The position numbers and the translations under genes are program-made. Below the pieces are notes generated by a model. It was given only the letters and a program-made list of their open reading frames with translations. It was not told the origin of the DNA and did no database searches. 64,000 bases of DNA, taken from the NCBI GenBank assembly GCA_038881895.1, contig JAVZOV010000003.1, positions 62,001 through 126,000 on the forward strand. The letters are read 5' to 3'. The DNA is from Thermoprotei archaeon (GTDB lineage: Archaea > Thermoproteota > Thermoprotei > Gearchaeales > WAQG01). Positions 39,901 to 55,157 of this stretch are shown one piece after another (position 1 is the first letter of the stretch; the number at the start of each line of letters is the position of its first letter).

Positions 39901-40299
39901 TTAAATCTTCCTTCTTACTGGAATCTCTAGTAATTCGATTAATAGTTCATCGTATGTTTTGTTTGAGTGTTCTTCTAAGTAAATACTTTTTAGTTGCGCA
40001 TAAGCTTGTGCTATTAAATGATAGCATGGTTCGTTTTCTCCTGAGGCTACTAATGTTGTGAAACCATTACAACTGCAATAATACATGGGTATTATAAAGT
40101 AACGGCCGCTACGACCTTCAGCTATCCAGAGTTCTTTTCCATCGATTGTGTAAACTTTTCTTATACCATTGCTTTCTGCGAGTTTTATAGCTTTCAAACC
40201 TCGTCTCTTAAAATTTTTTTTAATCTGTTTTTTTAGATCTGTTTCACTGGATAATGCCTCTCTAATTTTTTGTGACATTTTTTCATAGTATGGATACAT
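39901..40299 (-). CDS. SWIM zinc-finger protein
   Basis: 132 residues from the ATG at 40299. A longer reading frame would begin inside the tRNA-Phe gene and is rejected. The zinc motif is CxC...CxH: YYCSCNGF followed by CYHLIA, the SWIM pattern. The N-terminus is Lys-rich. SWIM domains bind DNA or proteins (for example in Sws1/Rad51 regulators and ubiquitin ligases). No partner gene is next to it, other than the tRNA 18 bases upstream. Confidence 0.75.
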   Translation of the reverse strand: MYPYYEKMSQKIREALSSETDLKKQIKKNFKRRGLKAIKLAESNGIRKVYTIDGKELWIAEGRSGRYFIIPMYYCSCNGFTTLVASGENEPCYHLIAQAYAQLKSIYLEEHSNKTYDELLIELLEIPVRRKI

Positions 40300-40316
40300 T
40301 TTTCGTCTCCATGAGG

Positions 40317-40425
40317 TGCCGAGGGTGGGATTTGAACCCACGGCAGCCCGGTCTTCAGCCGGGTGCTCTCCCAGGCTGAGCTCTCGATGCGATGTTTTAA
40401 TCGCGACCTCGGCTCCCACCTCGGC
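40317..40425 (-). tRNA. tRNA-Phe(GAA) with a 35-nt intron before the D-arm
   Basis: The minus strand reads GCCGAGG (acceptor) and ends CCTCGGC with discriminator A. The anticodon arm is CCCGG-CTGAAGA-CCGGG, anticodon GAA. The D-arm is GCTCAGCCTGGGAGAGC and the T-arm GTGGG-TTCAAAT-CCCAC. Between the acceptor stem and the D-stem there are 37 bases instead of 2. Removing 35 (keeping T8 and A9, or T8 and G9) gives a normal 74-nt tRNA. The inserted part contains the hairpin GCGAT/ATCGC. This is the second non-canonical D-side intron in this window. CCA is not encoded. Confidence 0.9.
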
Positions 40426-40501: not shown

Positions 40502-40888
40502 TTAACGCTCTAACGATCTGTCAGCTTTATGCTTTACATAATCTTTAGGCTTTAGTTCACTAAGTATGTAATCAAAGGCTTTCTCAGGATCTGTGTGACT
40601 ACCGCATGTGAATACGTCCACTGTTGCATAATTATACTCGTTCCATGTATGTATAGCAATGTGGCTTTCTAACACAAGGGCTATGACTGATACGCCGCCT
40701 TTTCTACCGCCAAATTTCCATGATTTTACTTCCCACAATCTTGCATTGGAGACTTTAACTGCATTAAGTACTATTTGTGTTAATCTTTCCTCATCGTTTA
40801 AAATTTTTGGATCACACCCATAAAGATTGCCATATACGTGTTTTCCAATTACGGTGTCTTCCCGAATATATTCTTGCTGTTGGCCCAT
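40502..40888 (-). CDS. Pyruvoyl-dependent SpeD-family decarboxylase (SAM or arginine decarboxylase)
   Basis: 128 residues of the small (class 1B) SpeD proenzyme type. Self-cleavage would occur at E74-S75 in [12 protein letters not shown], turning S75 into the pyruvoyl group. Conserved [10 protein letters not shown] is present. The [13 protein letters not shown] start and the [14 protein letters not shown] block resemble the crenarchaeal paralog that decarboxylates arginine rather than SAM. A second, more typical SAM decarboxylase lies at 54.8 kb, so this one could be the arginine enzyme, making agmatine for polyamines. Separation of the two activities by sequence alone is tentative. Confidence 0.75.
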
Positions 40889-50982: not shown

Positions 50983-53900
50983 TTAAAAGAAACGATCGAG
51001 TTTCTCTTCAATCTCTATTTCCTTAATTATATCACGAATAGTGTTAGCAATGTTTTGTATTATATTTGGTTGTTTTCTAATTATTGTTGATATTTTATCA
51101 AAAATAATTATGTATTTAGTGAGTTCCTTTGAATCCTCTACCGTCTTCAGTGGAGAATTGCATTTAATGCACAAACCATTGAGTGGGGGTCTTTTATAAA
51201 TCATTCCGCACTTTGTGCAGACAAATCCTGATGTCAAATACCTTAACAATTTTTTCTTGAAGATAGGAATAAGTTGAGCAGAAATAATAATTAAGCTTTT
51301 TTCAGTGTCAATGTATTCAAGCTTTGATATTATATTCAAATAAAGTTCCAAGTTATTTAACAGATCTCGAGAATATTGTTGTACTGGATTGATTAAAAAT
51401 TCTGGGTAAAACATTAAATTATTATAAATAGCTTCTTCATTAATGTTTACTGAGGATGCTTTCTCGCCAATCCATGATGTGTCATAAATCGTTAATGGCT
51501 CATCTACTAGCTTAATTTCATCAATATGCATATTTATTATAAATGGATAATGTTCATACCCTAAGTATTTTGATGAATAGTTAAGAATCAAATCAAGTGC
51601 TAATGCGATGTAATCTTCCTGTCCGTTACATAATCTACCTTTTGACGCATGCCATGATGGATGTGCATACAATACATCGGACTCGCTAAATCCAATTATA
51701 CGACCAATAACACCTACACGTGAGTTAGGAGCAAACCCTATGATTAAATGTCCTATAAGTTCATATAAATCTGATGCGTAATAGAATAACGGTAACTTGT
51801 ATATATTTTGTAATTCAGAATCTACAAACTTAGCTACATTTAGAAGCAGCTCTCCAACATGCTTTGGTAGTATTACATCGTACGGAAATAATCTTATAAC
51901 CTGATTTTCATTAACCAGTTCATTTCCATCAGCATCATAATTATACCCCAACGATTTCAATCTCTGAACACTAGCACTTATATCTTTTGGCCTAAAATGT
52001 GTAAGCGGAGCATTGGTTATCCTTATTTTTATTATCCCATCGCTGCTCACTGACACATTGTTTAGTGAACGCAATATTCCTTTTTCAATTATTTCATAAC
52101 CTCCACCATCTTTTACTGGCCTCAATGTACTTGGAGATCCTAAACCTATTTTTTTTATAGCATTCCTATATTCTTCAATACTAATAGAGAAGACGTTATA
52201 GATGTCTGCCTTTAAATTGCATTTAGGACATATCGCAGAATCTATAAATATTTTACATCTCGGACAATAATAACCTTTAATTGTTCGTGATCCACACGTA
52301 GGACATTGATATTTATATGTTACATTATTACAGTTTTTACAGATTCTAATAGATAGTAATGCATTAACGCTTTTTTCATTAATCGTAGCCAGATCATCAA
52401 CATTAAATGGTATAATAGTGTGAACAATCCTGCTTTTCCTCTGTTTTTTAATGATTAAAGATGCATTCACGTTATTTACATACTTAGGTATGAGGATAAT
52501 TCCTGAAACAAGAAATATTATATCATTAACATTCATCCACTTAATTGCTTCATAAGTGATATTAGTATCAAAACCAAGGCATGAAAGTAATGCTCGTCCT
52601 TCATTAACCTCTAAGAAACCACTTGAAACAATATGGGGTACTAACAACTTTTTAAATAATCTTTTAATTTCCGAATTATATCTTATAAGCAACTTACTAT
52701 CCTGAAAAGTAAATCGTGATGCCTGTAATATCTTTCTTAATTGCAAATAATCACTAACAGATAACGCATCCCAATTAAACACATATTTAGGATGAAGAGG
52801 TATTCCTATTTTTTTTGAAAAATTAACAGCTTGTATGTCACTGGGTAATATTTTTCCCTTAAGTATGTCTTCTATACTCTTATCATCAAGATTCATATCT
52901 TTTTTTATTAAATTAAGATTAGCCTTCTCTCTTATTTTCCTTAGAAACAATAATTGCCACCATTCATTACAGAAACCAGCCCTCTTCAGCTTAGCATTAG
53001 AGCGCACCAGATCATTATAAGAAATCAAGATATCACCTAGATGAAGTATTTTAGATACTTTTTCATTTATTCTTAATGCATCCTCAAAATTTTCTATTTT
53101 TACGATACTACCATCTCTCAGTTCAACGATTGGCCCATCAATATTATCTACAGGAATGACAAGGGCGTGCCATGGAGCATTATCTAGTTTTAAAACTGAA
53201 CCAGTTCTTATGAGACCATTAAGCAAAAACATTGTTGCTGGATGAATACCAACTGCACCAAACCCAGTATTATATGCTCTTCCATAACGTATTTTAAATC
53301 CACCTTTACCATGTTGAGAAATAGGCATTTTTATATATTGAAAAGGCCTTTTAAAGCTTAAATTTTCAAGCCATGACCATCCTTCAAGATTCAGCATTCT
53401 TGATAATCGAATTAGACTATTTTTATGCGCAGCAATACTTAACAAAACTCGAGAAACAACACCAAATCCTTCATCACTAGAAACACCTACTTGAAGATGA
53501 GAAATTATCTCCCTTATCACATGAAACGAACTTCTATCCTTCTCCCTCTCATTATAAAAGCTGTTAAATTCCTCAACATTAAATCTGTATTCATTTAAAT
53601 GCGCACTACGACGGACATAGTCTGCTATCATCACCGAAAAAGCCAAATTAGAGGATTTAACTCTAAAAACAGCAGAATTATAATTAAGTAGTAAAGATTT
53701 TTGAGGTTGAAAAACAATTTTTACATCGGAAATAGAGTAAATACCTCCATCATCATGACCCTGGTTTATAGTAACAAGACCTGCACGGATAGCCAAGAGT
53801 ATTGATTTATCATCAGGAAAACTACCAAACTTACCTAACATTGTTTCTTCAGCAACTTTAAAAGCTGCAACCTCTGGACCTAAAGATGAAATAAGTTCAT

Positions 53901-54078
53901 CAGCTTGCAATCCAAAATTCTTAAGTTCTGGCATCATCTCCTGCATTAATTCAGCACGATTATGAACCGTAATCACTTCTGGCTTTGTTTCAGGATCAAC
54001 TCCCTTCATCCTAGCATGTCTTCCCATCTCTAATACATTCATGAGGCTCTCTTCAATAATTTTATGCAATAGACTCAC
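50983..54078 (-). CDS. DNA polymerase D large subunit (DP2) homolog with active-site aspartates lost
   Basis: 1031 residues, GTG start. Conserved DP2 blocks are clear: HGKGGFKIRYGRAYNTGFGA and GIHPATM, LHLGDILISYND, two zinc modules (about 579-622: CKNCNN...CPTCG...CPRCK...CPKCN), HPSWHASKGRL, and the C-terminal CTKCGMIYKRPPLNGLCIKC (about 953-972). The catalytic loop, which reads NCDGDED in active enzymes, is LCNGQED here: the metal-binding Asp are N818 and Q820. The preceding Asn is Leu, and AAKRR is ASKGR. The DPBB segment NIDGPIVEL has Glu where relatives have Lys. The frame is intact and long, so it is under selection, but polymerisation should be lost. No small DP1 subunit gene is in the window. 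Confidence 0.85.
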   Translation of the reverse strand: MSLLHKIIEESLMNVLEMGRHARMKGVDPETKPEVITVHNRAELMQEMMPELKNFGLQADELISSLGPEVAAFKVAEETMLGKFGSFPDDKSILLAIRAGLVTINQGHDDGGIYSISDVKIVFQPQKSLLLNYNSAVFRVKSSNLAFSVMIADYVRRSAHLNEYRFNVEEFNSFYNEREKDRSSFHVIREIISHLQVGVSSDEGFGVVSRVLLSIAAHKNSLIRLSRMLNLEGWSWLENLSFKRPFQYIKMPISQHGKGGFKIRYGRAYNTGFGAVGIHPATMFLLNGLIRTGSVLKLDNAPWHALVIPVDNIDGPIVELRDGSIVKIENFEDALRINEKVSKILHLGDILISYNDLVRSNAKLKRAGFCNEWWQLLFLRKIREKANLNLIKKDMNLDDKSIEDILKGKILPSDIQAVNFSKKIGIPLHPKYVFNWDALSVSDYLQLRKILQASRFTFQDSKLLIRYNSEIKRLFKKLLVPHIVSSGFLEVNEGRALLSCLGFDTNITYEAIKWMNVNDIIFLVSGIILIPKYVNNVNASLIIKKQRKSRIVHTIIPFNVDDLATINEKSVNALLSIRICKNCNNVTYKYQCPTCGSRTIKGYYCPRCKIFIDSAICPKCNLKADIYNVFSISIEEYRNAIKKIGLGSPSTLRPVKDGGGYEIIEKGILRSLNNVSVSSDGIIKIRITNAPLTHFRPKDISASVQRLKSLGYNYDADGNELVNENQVIRLFPYDVILPKHVGELLLNVAKFVDSELQNIYKLPLFYYASDLYELIGHLIIGFAPNSRVGVIGRIIGFSESDVLYAHPSWHASKGRLCNGQEDYIALALDLILNYSSKYLGYEHYPFIINMHIDEIKLVDEPLTIYDTSWIGEKASSVNINEEAIYNNLMFYPEFLINPVQQYSRDLLNNLELYLNIISKLEYIDTEKSLIIISAQLIPIFKKKLLRYLTSGFVCTKCGMIYKRPPLNGLCIKCNSPLKTVEDSKELTKYIIIFDKISTIIRKQPNIIQNIANTIRDIIKEIEIEEKLDRFF

Positions 54079-54152
54079 CTTTTACTGAAATACAAAAGTA
54101 TTAATTATCTAATTAAAGTTTCGAATTATTATCTTAAATTTCGCTGTAAAAA

Positions 54153-54229
54153 TGGAGCCTCGGCCGGGCTTTGAACCCGGGTCCTCCGCATTACCAGTGC
54201 GGCGCTCCACCAGGCTGAGCTACCGAGGC
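54153..54229 (-). tRNA. tRNA-Thr(GGU), no intron
   Basis: The acceptor is GCCTCGG with CCGAGGC; the anticodon arm CCGCA-CTGGTAA-TGCGG gives anticodon GGU. D-stem GCTC/GAGC and T-arm CCGGG-TTCAAAG-CCCGG are standard. Discriminator is U; the three following bases read CCA, so the tail appears encoded. In contrast to the other two tRNA genes here it has no intron. Confidence 0.93.
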
Positions 54230-54758
54230 TCCTAATGATAAAAGAAATTTAGATAAATTTTAAGTTTTCGTTTAAAAAGAACATGATAAAGAAGATGTAC
54301 CATAGGATGTATCCTACCCAGAGTGAGAGTATTAGTGTGTAGATTGTAAGTCCTAGTAAGACACTTGTGCTTCTTAATTTATAAATTATGTAGCGACTGA
54401 AGATAGTGCAGCAATATGCAAACTGACTGTGAGACTGTCTTCATACCAGGAGTGCATTGACATAGCTCAAATCTCGGTAGGATGAAATTCTAAGAGGGGC
54501 TGAAAACTGAGAAACTTCTGGTTTTAGCTGTAGAGAATATTAATGGTATTCTTATGATATTTTATAAACAAAAATTCAACAAAATCACTATATTATAAAA
54601 TAAAAATGGGTACTGAAGATGCGTGGATAGTTTTCCTAAAAATTTTGAACCTGTATATTTTAAAAATAGTTTTATCAATTTGAAATATTTTTGTTGGTAC
54701 TTATTTTTTTGTAGAGTTATACTTATATTTTGCTTTAAGATATTTGCTTTTCGTAGAA
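54230..54758. other. Intergenic region with a decayed membrane-protein fragment
   Basis: About 530 bases before the SAM decarboxylase gene. The minus-strand frame 54249-54417 ends LTIYTLILSLWVGYILWYIF followed by a short charged tail and stop, clearly membrane-like, but has no start codon between the preceding stop and the hydrophobic part, so it is probably a broken gene. The rest (54420-54720) shows nothing recognisable apart from AT-rich promoter-like sequence. Confidence 0.35.
54723..54731 (+). promoter_or_regulatory. TATA box of the SAM decarboxylase gene
   Basis: TTATATTTT, 28 bases before the ATG at 54759. It supports leaderless transcription and rules out the upstream in-frame start at 54744. 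Confidence 0.5.
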
Positions 54759-55157
54759 ATGGTGGGGCTAGAGATACTTGACGTCAGAGAACAAGAAAAC
54801 ATAAAAAGTACGGTCGGGAGGCACCTCATAGCCGAGCTATTTAACTGTGATGAACAAATTCTTACGGACGTCGATAGAATTAGAGAAATATTCGTAAAAG
54901 CAGCGAAGGAAGCAAAAATGCATGTTGTAAAAGCATACTTTCACAGATTTAACCCACATGGTGTTAGTGGTATGGTAATTGTGGCTGAATCGCATTTATC
55001 AATCCATACATGGCCAGAGCACGGTTATGCAGCAGTTGACATATATGTTTGCGGTAATGATGCAGATCCATGGAACGCATACAGGATCATAGTAACGGAA
55101 CTGAAGGCTAAACAAGTGACCGCCTTAGAACTTAAACGTGGAATAATAATAAAATAG
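54759..55157 (+). CDS. speD: S-adenosylmethionine decarboxylase proenzyme
   Basis: 132 residues from the ATG at 54759. Class 1B AdoMetDC: VGRHLIAELFNC near the start, the cleavage motif AESHLSIHTWPEHGY (Ser78 becomes pyruvoyl) and AAVDIYVCGNDADPW. The enzyme makes decarboxylated SAM for spermidine/thermospermine, important in thermophiles. HRFNPHGVSGMVIVAESHLS is closer to ordinary AdoMetDC than the paralog at 40.5 kb. Monocistronic. Confidence 0.88.
   Translation: MVGLEILDVREQENIKSTVGRHLIAELFNCDEQILTDVDRIREIFVKAAKEAKMHVVKAYFHRFNPHGVSGMVIVAESHLSIHTWPEHGYAAVDIYVCGNDADPWNAYRIIVTELKAKQVTALELKRGIIIK

Follow-up and report, generated by a model that had tools for sequence, protein, structure and literature searches.

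A DNA polymerase D large subunit kept as an intact, almost certainly polymerase-dead protein in a Thermoprotei archaeon

How lineages swap one replicative polymerase for another is an open question. In the textbook case, the Crenarchaea, polymerase D (PolD) was lost and a family B polymerase (PolB) took over; eukaryotes are thought to have retained PolD-derived pieces after their own PolB takeover, DP1 as the B-subunits and DP2 as a zinc-bearing C-terminal domain. The 64,000-nucleotide stretch of a Thermoprotei archaeon contig analyzed here (the window) raises this question in a concrete form, as it codes on its minus strand for a PolD large subunit, DP2, with an altered catalytic loop. A sequence-only reading had taken this gene for an inactivated DP2 maintained in a non-catalytic role. 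Is it then a working enzyme, a decaying relic, or a protein with another function?

The gene (50983..54078, minus strand, as are all features given below) was recognized from its open reading frame and its Pfam and PDB sequence matches. As claimed earlier, no stop interrupts its 1031 listed codons; its start, however, is likely to be the TTG at 54067-54069 and not the listed GTG, which lies inside a Shine-Dalgarno-like motif, AGGTGA (54080-54075), set off from the TTG by a 5-nt spacer (54067..54080 in all). The tRNA-Thr(GGT) immediately upstream (54153..54229) is a neighbor and not part of the gene. Three DP2 domains follow each other in the expected order, all above their cut-offs: PolC_DP2_N (PF03833, residues 6-180, 53539..54063, 56.8 bits), PolC_DP2_central (PF24844, residues 258-612, 52243..53307, 234 bits) and the DPBB-2 catalytic domain PolC_DP2_cat (PF24846, residues 662-840, 51559..52095, 210 bits). 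The Pfam matches comprise these domains and zinc motifs, with no family B polymerase domain among them, and the protein also matches the solved DP2 structures 6hms (E 1e-124), 6t8h, 5ijl and 6knb. A first sign of strong divergence is that it falls below all NCBIfam DP2 equivalog cut-offs (NF003103, 571 versus 1269 bits; TIGR00354, 491 versus 702).

The catalytic loop, residues L816-C-N-G-Q-E-D822 (51613..51633), stands in place of the N/D-C-D-G-D-E-D of active enzymes. Its codons (TTA TGT AAC GGA CAG GAA GAT), set beside those of a relative (AAC TGT GAT GGA GAT GAG GAT), bear out the claim that NCDGDED has become LCNGQED with both aspartates gone (now N818 and Q820). In Pyrococcus abyssi DP2, D956 and D958 of the DPBB-2 loop are critical for activity by alanine scanning (PMC4996933), and the D-G-D is invariant in all 44 active DP2s of our reference alignment, which come from the same phylum, four of them from the same class. 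The window protein shows N954->L, D956->N and D958->Q, which together lie seven bases away from the relative. The changes reach far beyond the loop: at the 108 columns strictly invariant across the 44 active DP2s, the window protein keeps 57 residues and has 41 substitutions and 10 gaps, whereas each active DP2, when left out in turn as a control, keeps 95.6-100%. Lost are the N-terminal GPIRSAGGT, the HRDLPRVETNxVRGG stretch, the DPBB-1 RxGRPE site (residues 540-545, now S-L-I-I-K-K, 52444..52461), the H-T pair that precedes the loop, the initial R of KRR and the MD pair that follows the barrel; clamp-1 is altered in part, as are residues next to the active site. We read these losses as catalytic and DNA-handling, the latter from the position of the motifs.

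Set against them are the zinc modules, in which all 12 cysteines are kept: eight of eight in Zn-I and Zn-II (residues 580-620, 52219..52341) and Cys 954/957/970/973 in Zn-III (51160..51219), with a YKRPP loop that corresponds to YRRPP, the loop through which active DP2 contacts DP1. The protein ends in a PCNA-box-like tail, EKLDRFF (50986..51006), for which the cPIP of other DP2s provides a precedent (PMC7101311). The core of the sequence-only reading, an intact frame with a dead loop, thus stands; its further statement that all structural landmarks remain holds for the domain order and the zinc cysteines, and fails at the 51 of 108 invariant positions that are changed or deleted. A sequencing error at 51619-51627, which had been named as a possible refutation, is not credible given the seven-base difference and the many other invariant residues lost. 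Judged from the alignment, the pattern is one that marks a pseudoenzyme and not random damage, and the protein is almost certainly polymerase-dead. It might be argued that so divergent a DP2 still polymerizes or binds nucleotides through other metal ligands, as the loop retains E821 and D822 and much of DPBB-2 is still recognizable in sequence. However, with the two aspartates that alanine scanning marks as critical (PMC4996933) invariant in all 44 active DP2s, RxGRPE and GPIRSAGGT gone and related proteins (see below) devoid of a recognizable loop, we regard such residual activity as very improbable.

A dead enzyme might still be a mere pseudogene or a duplicate of an active gene. The genome of the window (G000; 1.75 Mb, 7 contigs, 97% complete) has a single DP2 and a single DP1, and neither PF03833 nor profile searches detected a second, active DP2 in it; a search of genome contigs with the window protein as query returned no match. 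The viral contigs searched contained no DP2 relative, and hence give no sign of a mobile origin. When an active DP2 gene was drifted neutrally in simulation, without indels, to the identity shown by the window DP2, it was left with 41-78 stops, as against none in the window gene. In the DP2 tree, the end branch of the window protein is ten times the median (4.76 versus 0.48), and this together with the stop-free frame indicates rapid evolution, though still that of a protein. The tree does not reject its grouping with the active DP2s of the class (p 0.446), to which it may belong. AlphaFold models of the window DP2 and a reduced relative (pLDDT 31.6 and 35.1) are uninformative as only three sequences were usable, which is too little alignment depth. 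A pseudogene was rejected in view of the intact frame, the drift simulation and the orthologous remnants in other genera. Hence, it is well supported by these sequence comparisons that the window DP2 is kept as a non-catalytic protein.

The order, a small group of archaea from hot environments, is represented by five genomes (G000-G004), some of them incomplete. Two sister genera, G002 (Centralia_MAG_457) and G003 (CPBay_Spr30G08_23), code for mini-DP2s of 729 and 734 residues, 28% identical to each other and with a shared arrangement of neighboring genes: GGGP synthase-like, SEC59-like, mini-DP2 and DUF2070-like (neighbors named by eye). A profile built from the two mini-DP2s alone, excluding the window DP2, matched that of the 44 active DP2s over the region that runs from Zn-I to the C-terminus (E 6.7e-22). 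Their catalytic loop is unrecognizable, and they keep the zinc cysteines and a tail, LDKFF or LDKYF; one of the two has a degraded Zn-III contact loop.

DP1 was found in G000 (G000:C2:147184-148716, 511 residues), G002, G003 and G004, and thus in all three genomes with a DP2 remnant; PF04042 overlooked that of G002, which a DP1 profile recovered. The catalytic residues of P. abyssi DP1 are D360, H362, D404, N450, H451, H497, H560 and H562 (PMC10721889). The DP1 of G000 keeps D360, H362, D404, H451, H497, H560 and H562, its sole change being N450->E (GEHD). Those of G002-G004 carry H362->R, N450->E, H451->R and H562->N (DxR, GERD, GHxN), and the DP1 of this sister family is accordingly predicted to be catalytically dead. 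The order therefore presents a graded series, from a nearly intact DP1 with a full-length dead DP2 in G000 to a dead DP1 with a mini-DP2 in G002 and G003, and since N450->E is common to all four DP1s, the series reads as stepwise. In G004 (67% complete), DP1 was found without DP2. In G001, of the same family as the window genome (86% complete, 260 contigs), neither subunit was found, a weak DP1 match there appearing Mre11-type by eye; with neither found there, the DP1-DP2 complex may be dispensable.

These observations bear on a further alternative, namely that PolD is simply unneeded in this order and that DP2, under relaxed selection, is slowly heading for loss, the fate it would have met in G001 and across most of the class. 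The very long DP2 branch, the progressive shortening of the protein, the missing subunits of G001 and the lack of detectable PolD across most of the class would all fit slow decay. Conversely, frames of 1031, 729 and 734 codons have stayed intact at a mutual identity of 20-28%, with every zinc cysteine and the tail kept, where dozens of stops would be expected of a neutral gene; moreover, G001 is an incomplete and fragmented assembly. We accordingly consider decay toward loss clearly unlikely, and the earlier claim that a non-catalytic role is being maintained gains from a sole DP2, from reduced DP2s accompanied by dead DP1s in the sister genera and from the stops expected under neutral drift.

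If the PolD of these archaea is dead, which enzyme copies the genome? Each of the five genomes of the order codes for a PolB1 whose exonuclease and polymerase motifs are intact; the names PolB1 and PolB3 are used here on the basis of length, motifs and alignment grouping, not of a tree. The window genome also codes for a PolB3-type enzyme (L003, G000:C5:101478-102659) with intact polymerase motifs A, B and C, in which exonuclease motifs I (FDIE->FFAF), II and III are lost; its relatives in the class keep all three. In G002-G004, the search for a PolB3-type enzyme with its motifs intact brought up only further degenerate PolBs. These are the PolB2-like L058 (G002), L056 (G003) and L057 (G004), with YGDVDS or HGIVDS in motif C and unrecognizable exonuclease motifs.

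This inventory suggests the main rival to the role that we propose below: DP1 might still be an exonuclease, with the dead DP2 as its partner and clamp tether, and proofread in trans for the exonuclease-dead PolB3. It accords with a G000 DP1 that keeps all listed catalytic residues except N450, with a PolB3 that has kept its polymerase motifs alone, and with the joint presence of a dead DP1 and absence of a detected intact-motif PolB3-type enzyme in the sister family. However, the case is confined to a single genome, N450 is a metal ligand and a glutamate there may abolish activity, and we know of no phosphodiesterase-fold nuclease that proofreads for a PolB. On balance we hold this to be unlikely.

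We modestly favor the explanation that the sole DP2, once part of an active PolD, became together with DP1 a non-catalytic hub of the replisome after PolB1 turned replicase. Under this proposal, PolB1 would have taken over synthesis while PolD stayed on as a non-catalytic DP1-DP2 complex. The window DP2 would most likely bind DP1 via its Zn-III and C-terminal region, as the Zn-III loop of active DP2 does (PMC6355029), and its C-terminal box would most likely bind PCNA and/or primase, as the cPIP tail does in other archaea (PMC7101311); these retained interfaces are judged from motifs. DP1 binds GINS15 in other archaea (PMC6741145), and a GINS gene is present in G000. At the fork, the complex would serve as a structural hub, with DP1 touching GINS and the DP2 tail touching the clamp or primase. 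A role of this kind, most likely a structural link from DP1 and GINS to PCNA or primase, would be analogous to that of the C-terminal half of Pol epsilon with Dpb2: there, Dpb2 is a DP1 that has been inactivated, and it is the dead C-terminal half that is essential, the catalytic half being non-essential (PMC2669801). Repurposing of DP2 outside replication, such as in repair or transcription through its zinc modules, draws on matches, weak and restricted to those modules, with Spt4 and further families of zinc-ribbon proteins; with DP1 and the PCNA-box-like tail both kept, it seems scarcely probable.

Returning to the replisome hub, we read the graded series as PolD giving up catalysis step by step, as replication moved over to PolB, and ending as a non-catalytic complex. 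The intermediate stage suggested by the sequence-only reading is well supported by this comparison, as DP1 and two PolBs occur beside the sole DP2 in G000, and reduced DP2s and dead DP1s in its sisters. More tentatively, and at a little below even confidence, we suggest that the whole PolD heterodimer turned into a non-catalytic replisome core, in grades within one order, as an independent parallel of the eukaryotic route, on which synthesis passed to PolB and parts derived from PolD remained as an essential scaffold.

How does this protein relate to known systems? With the active DP2 of P. abyssi (6hms/6t8h) it shares the domain order (N-terminal, central, catalytic, C-terminal), the cysteines of Zn-I, Zn-II and Zn-III, the PIP-like tail and a DP1 encoded in the same genome; it differs in lacking the catalytic N/D-D-D triad, RxGRPE and GPIRSAGGT, in its tenfold longer end branch, and in being about 110 residues shorter than its active relatives in the class. 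With Pol epsilon and Dpb2 it has in common that a polymerase module bearing zinc modules at its C-terminus is dead, and synthesis would likewise fall to a separate PolB module. However, the dead module here is of family D (DPBB) instead of family B and is encoded by a separate gene; the DP1-type B-subunit, inactivated in Dpb2, is dead in the sister family and nearly intact in G000 (N450->E only). PolB2/Dpo2 (PMC2527604, PMC4104785) is likewise a conserved archaeal polymerase homolog without catalytic residues, but its fold and family differ, and its gene often shares an operon with that of an inactivated RadA. DP1 without a working PolD is described for the Nitrososphaeria UBA160/UBA164, Heimdall B3/LC3 and Aenigmarchaeota, and for Aenigma and Heimdall the presumed replacement is a PolB that carries a DP2-like C-terminal domain; the main text of that study describes no retained dead DP2 (PMC7544198). 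Inactivated replicative polymerases (PolB2, the Pol epsilon C-terminus) and inactive DP1s lacking an active DP2 (PMC7544198) are thus already known. A retained dead DP2 appears to be new, none being described in the literature found by exact-phrase searches, with subscription papers incompletely covered. This order appears to preserve intermediates of polymerase replacement in which PolB1 is intact and a dead PolD is still kept, its degree of inactivation forming a series across living genera. A model of an enzyme replaced and its scaffold retained becomes testable with expressible proteins.

Of the 81 genomes analyzed from the class, only four, from two families (G005, G011, G014; G008), have an active PolD, and a dead PolD is confined to the order of the window genome; in the other 72, PolD went undetected save for marginal matches in G042 and G054. 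Elsewhere in the phylum, the DP2 profile matches G136 (family f38) at just E 3.6e-20, a weak score beside the E 0 attained by most full-length DP2s; the match is either a contig-end gene fragment or another decayed DP2. The window further holds two paralogs of an S-adenosylmethionine decarboxylase-like SpeD (40502-40888 and 54744-55157); in crenarchaea, one such paralog can be an arginine decarboxylase. Small SWIM-zinc-like proteins (CSC..GFT...CYH) are encoded in the window (39901-40419) and in both sister genera (L064:3922-4296; L065:3736-4173), where their genes adjoin the mini-DP2 locus.
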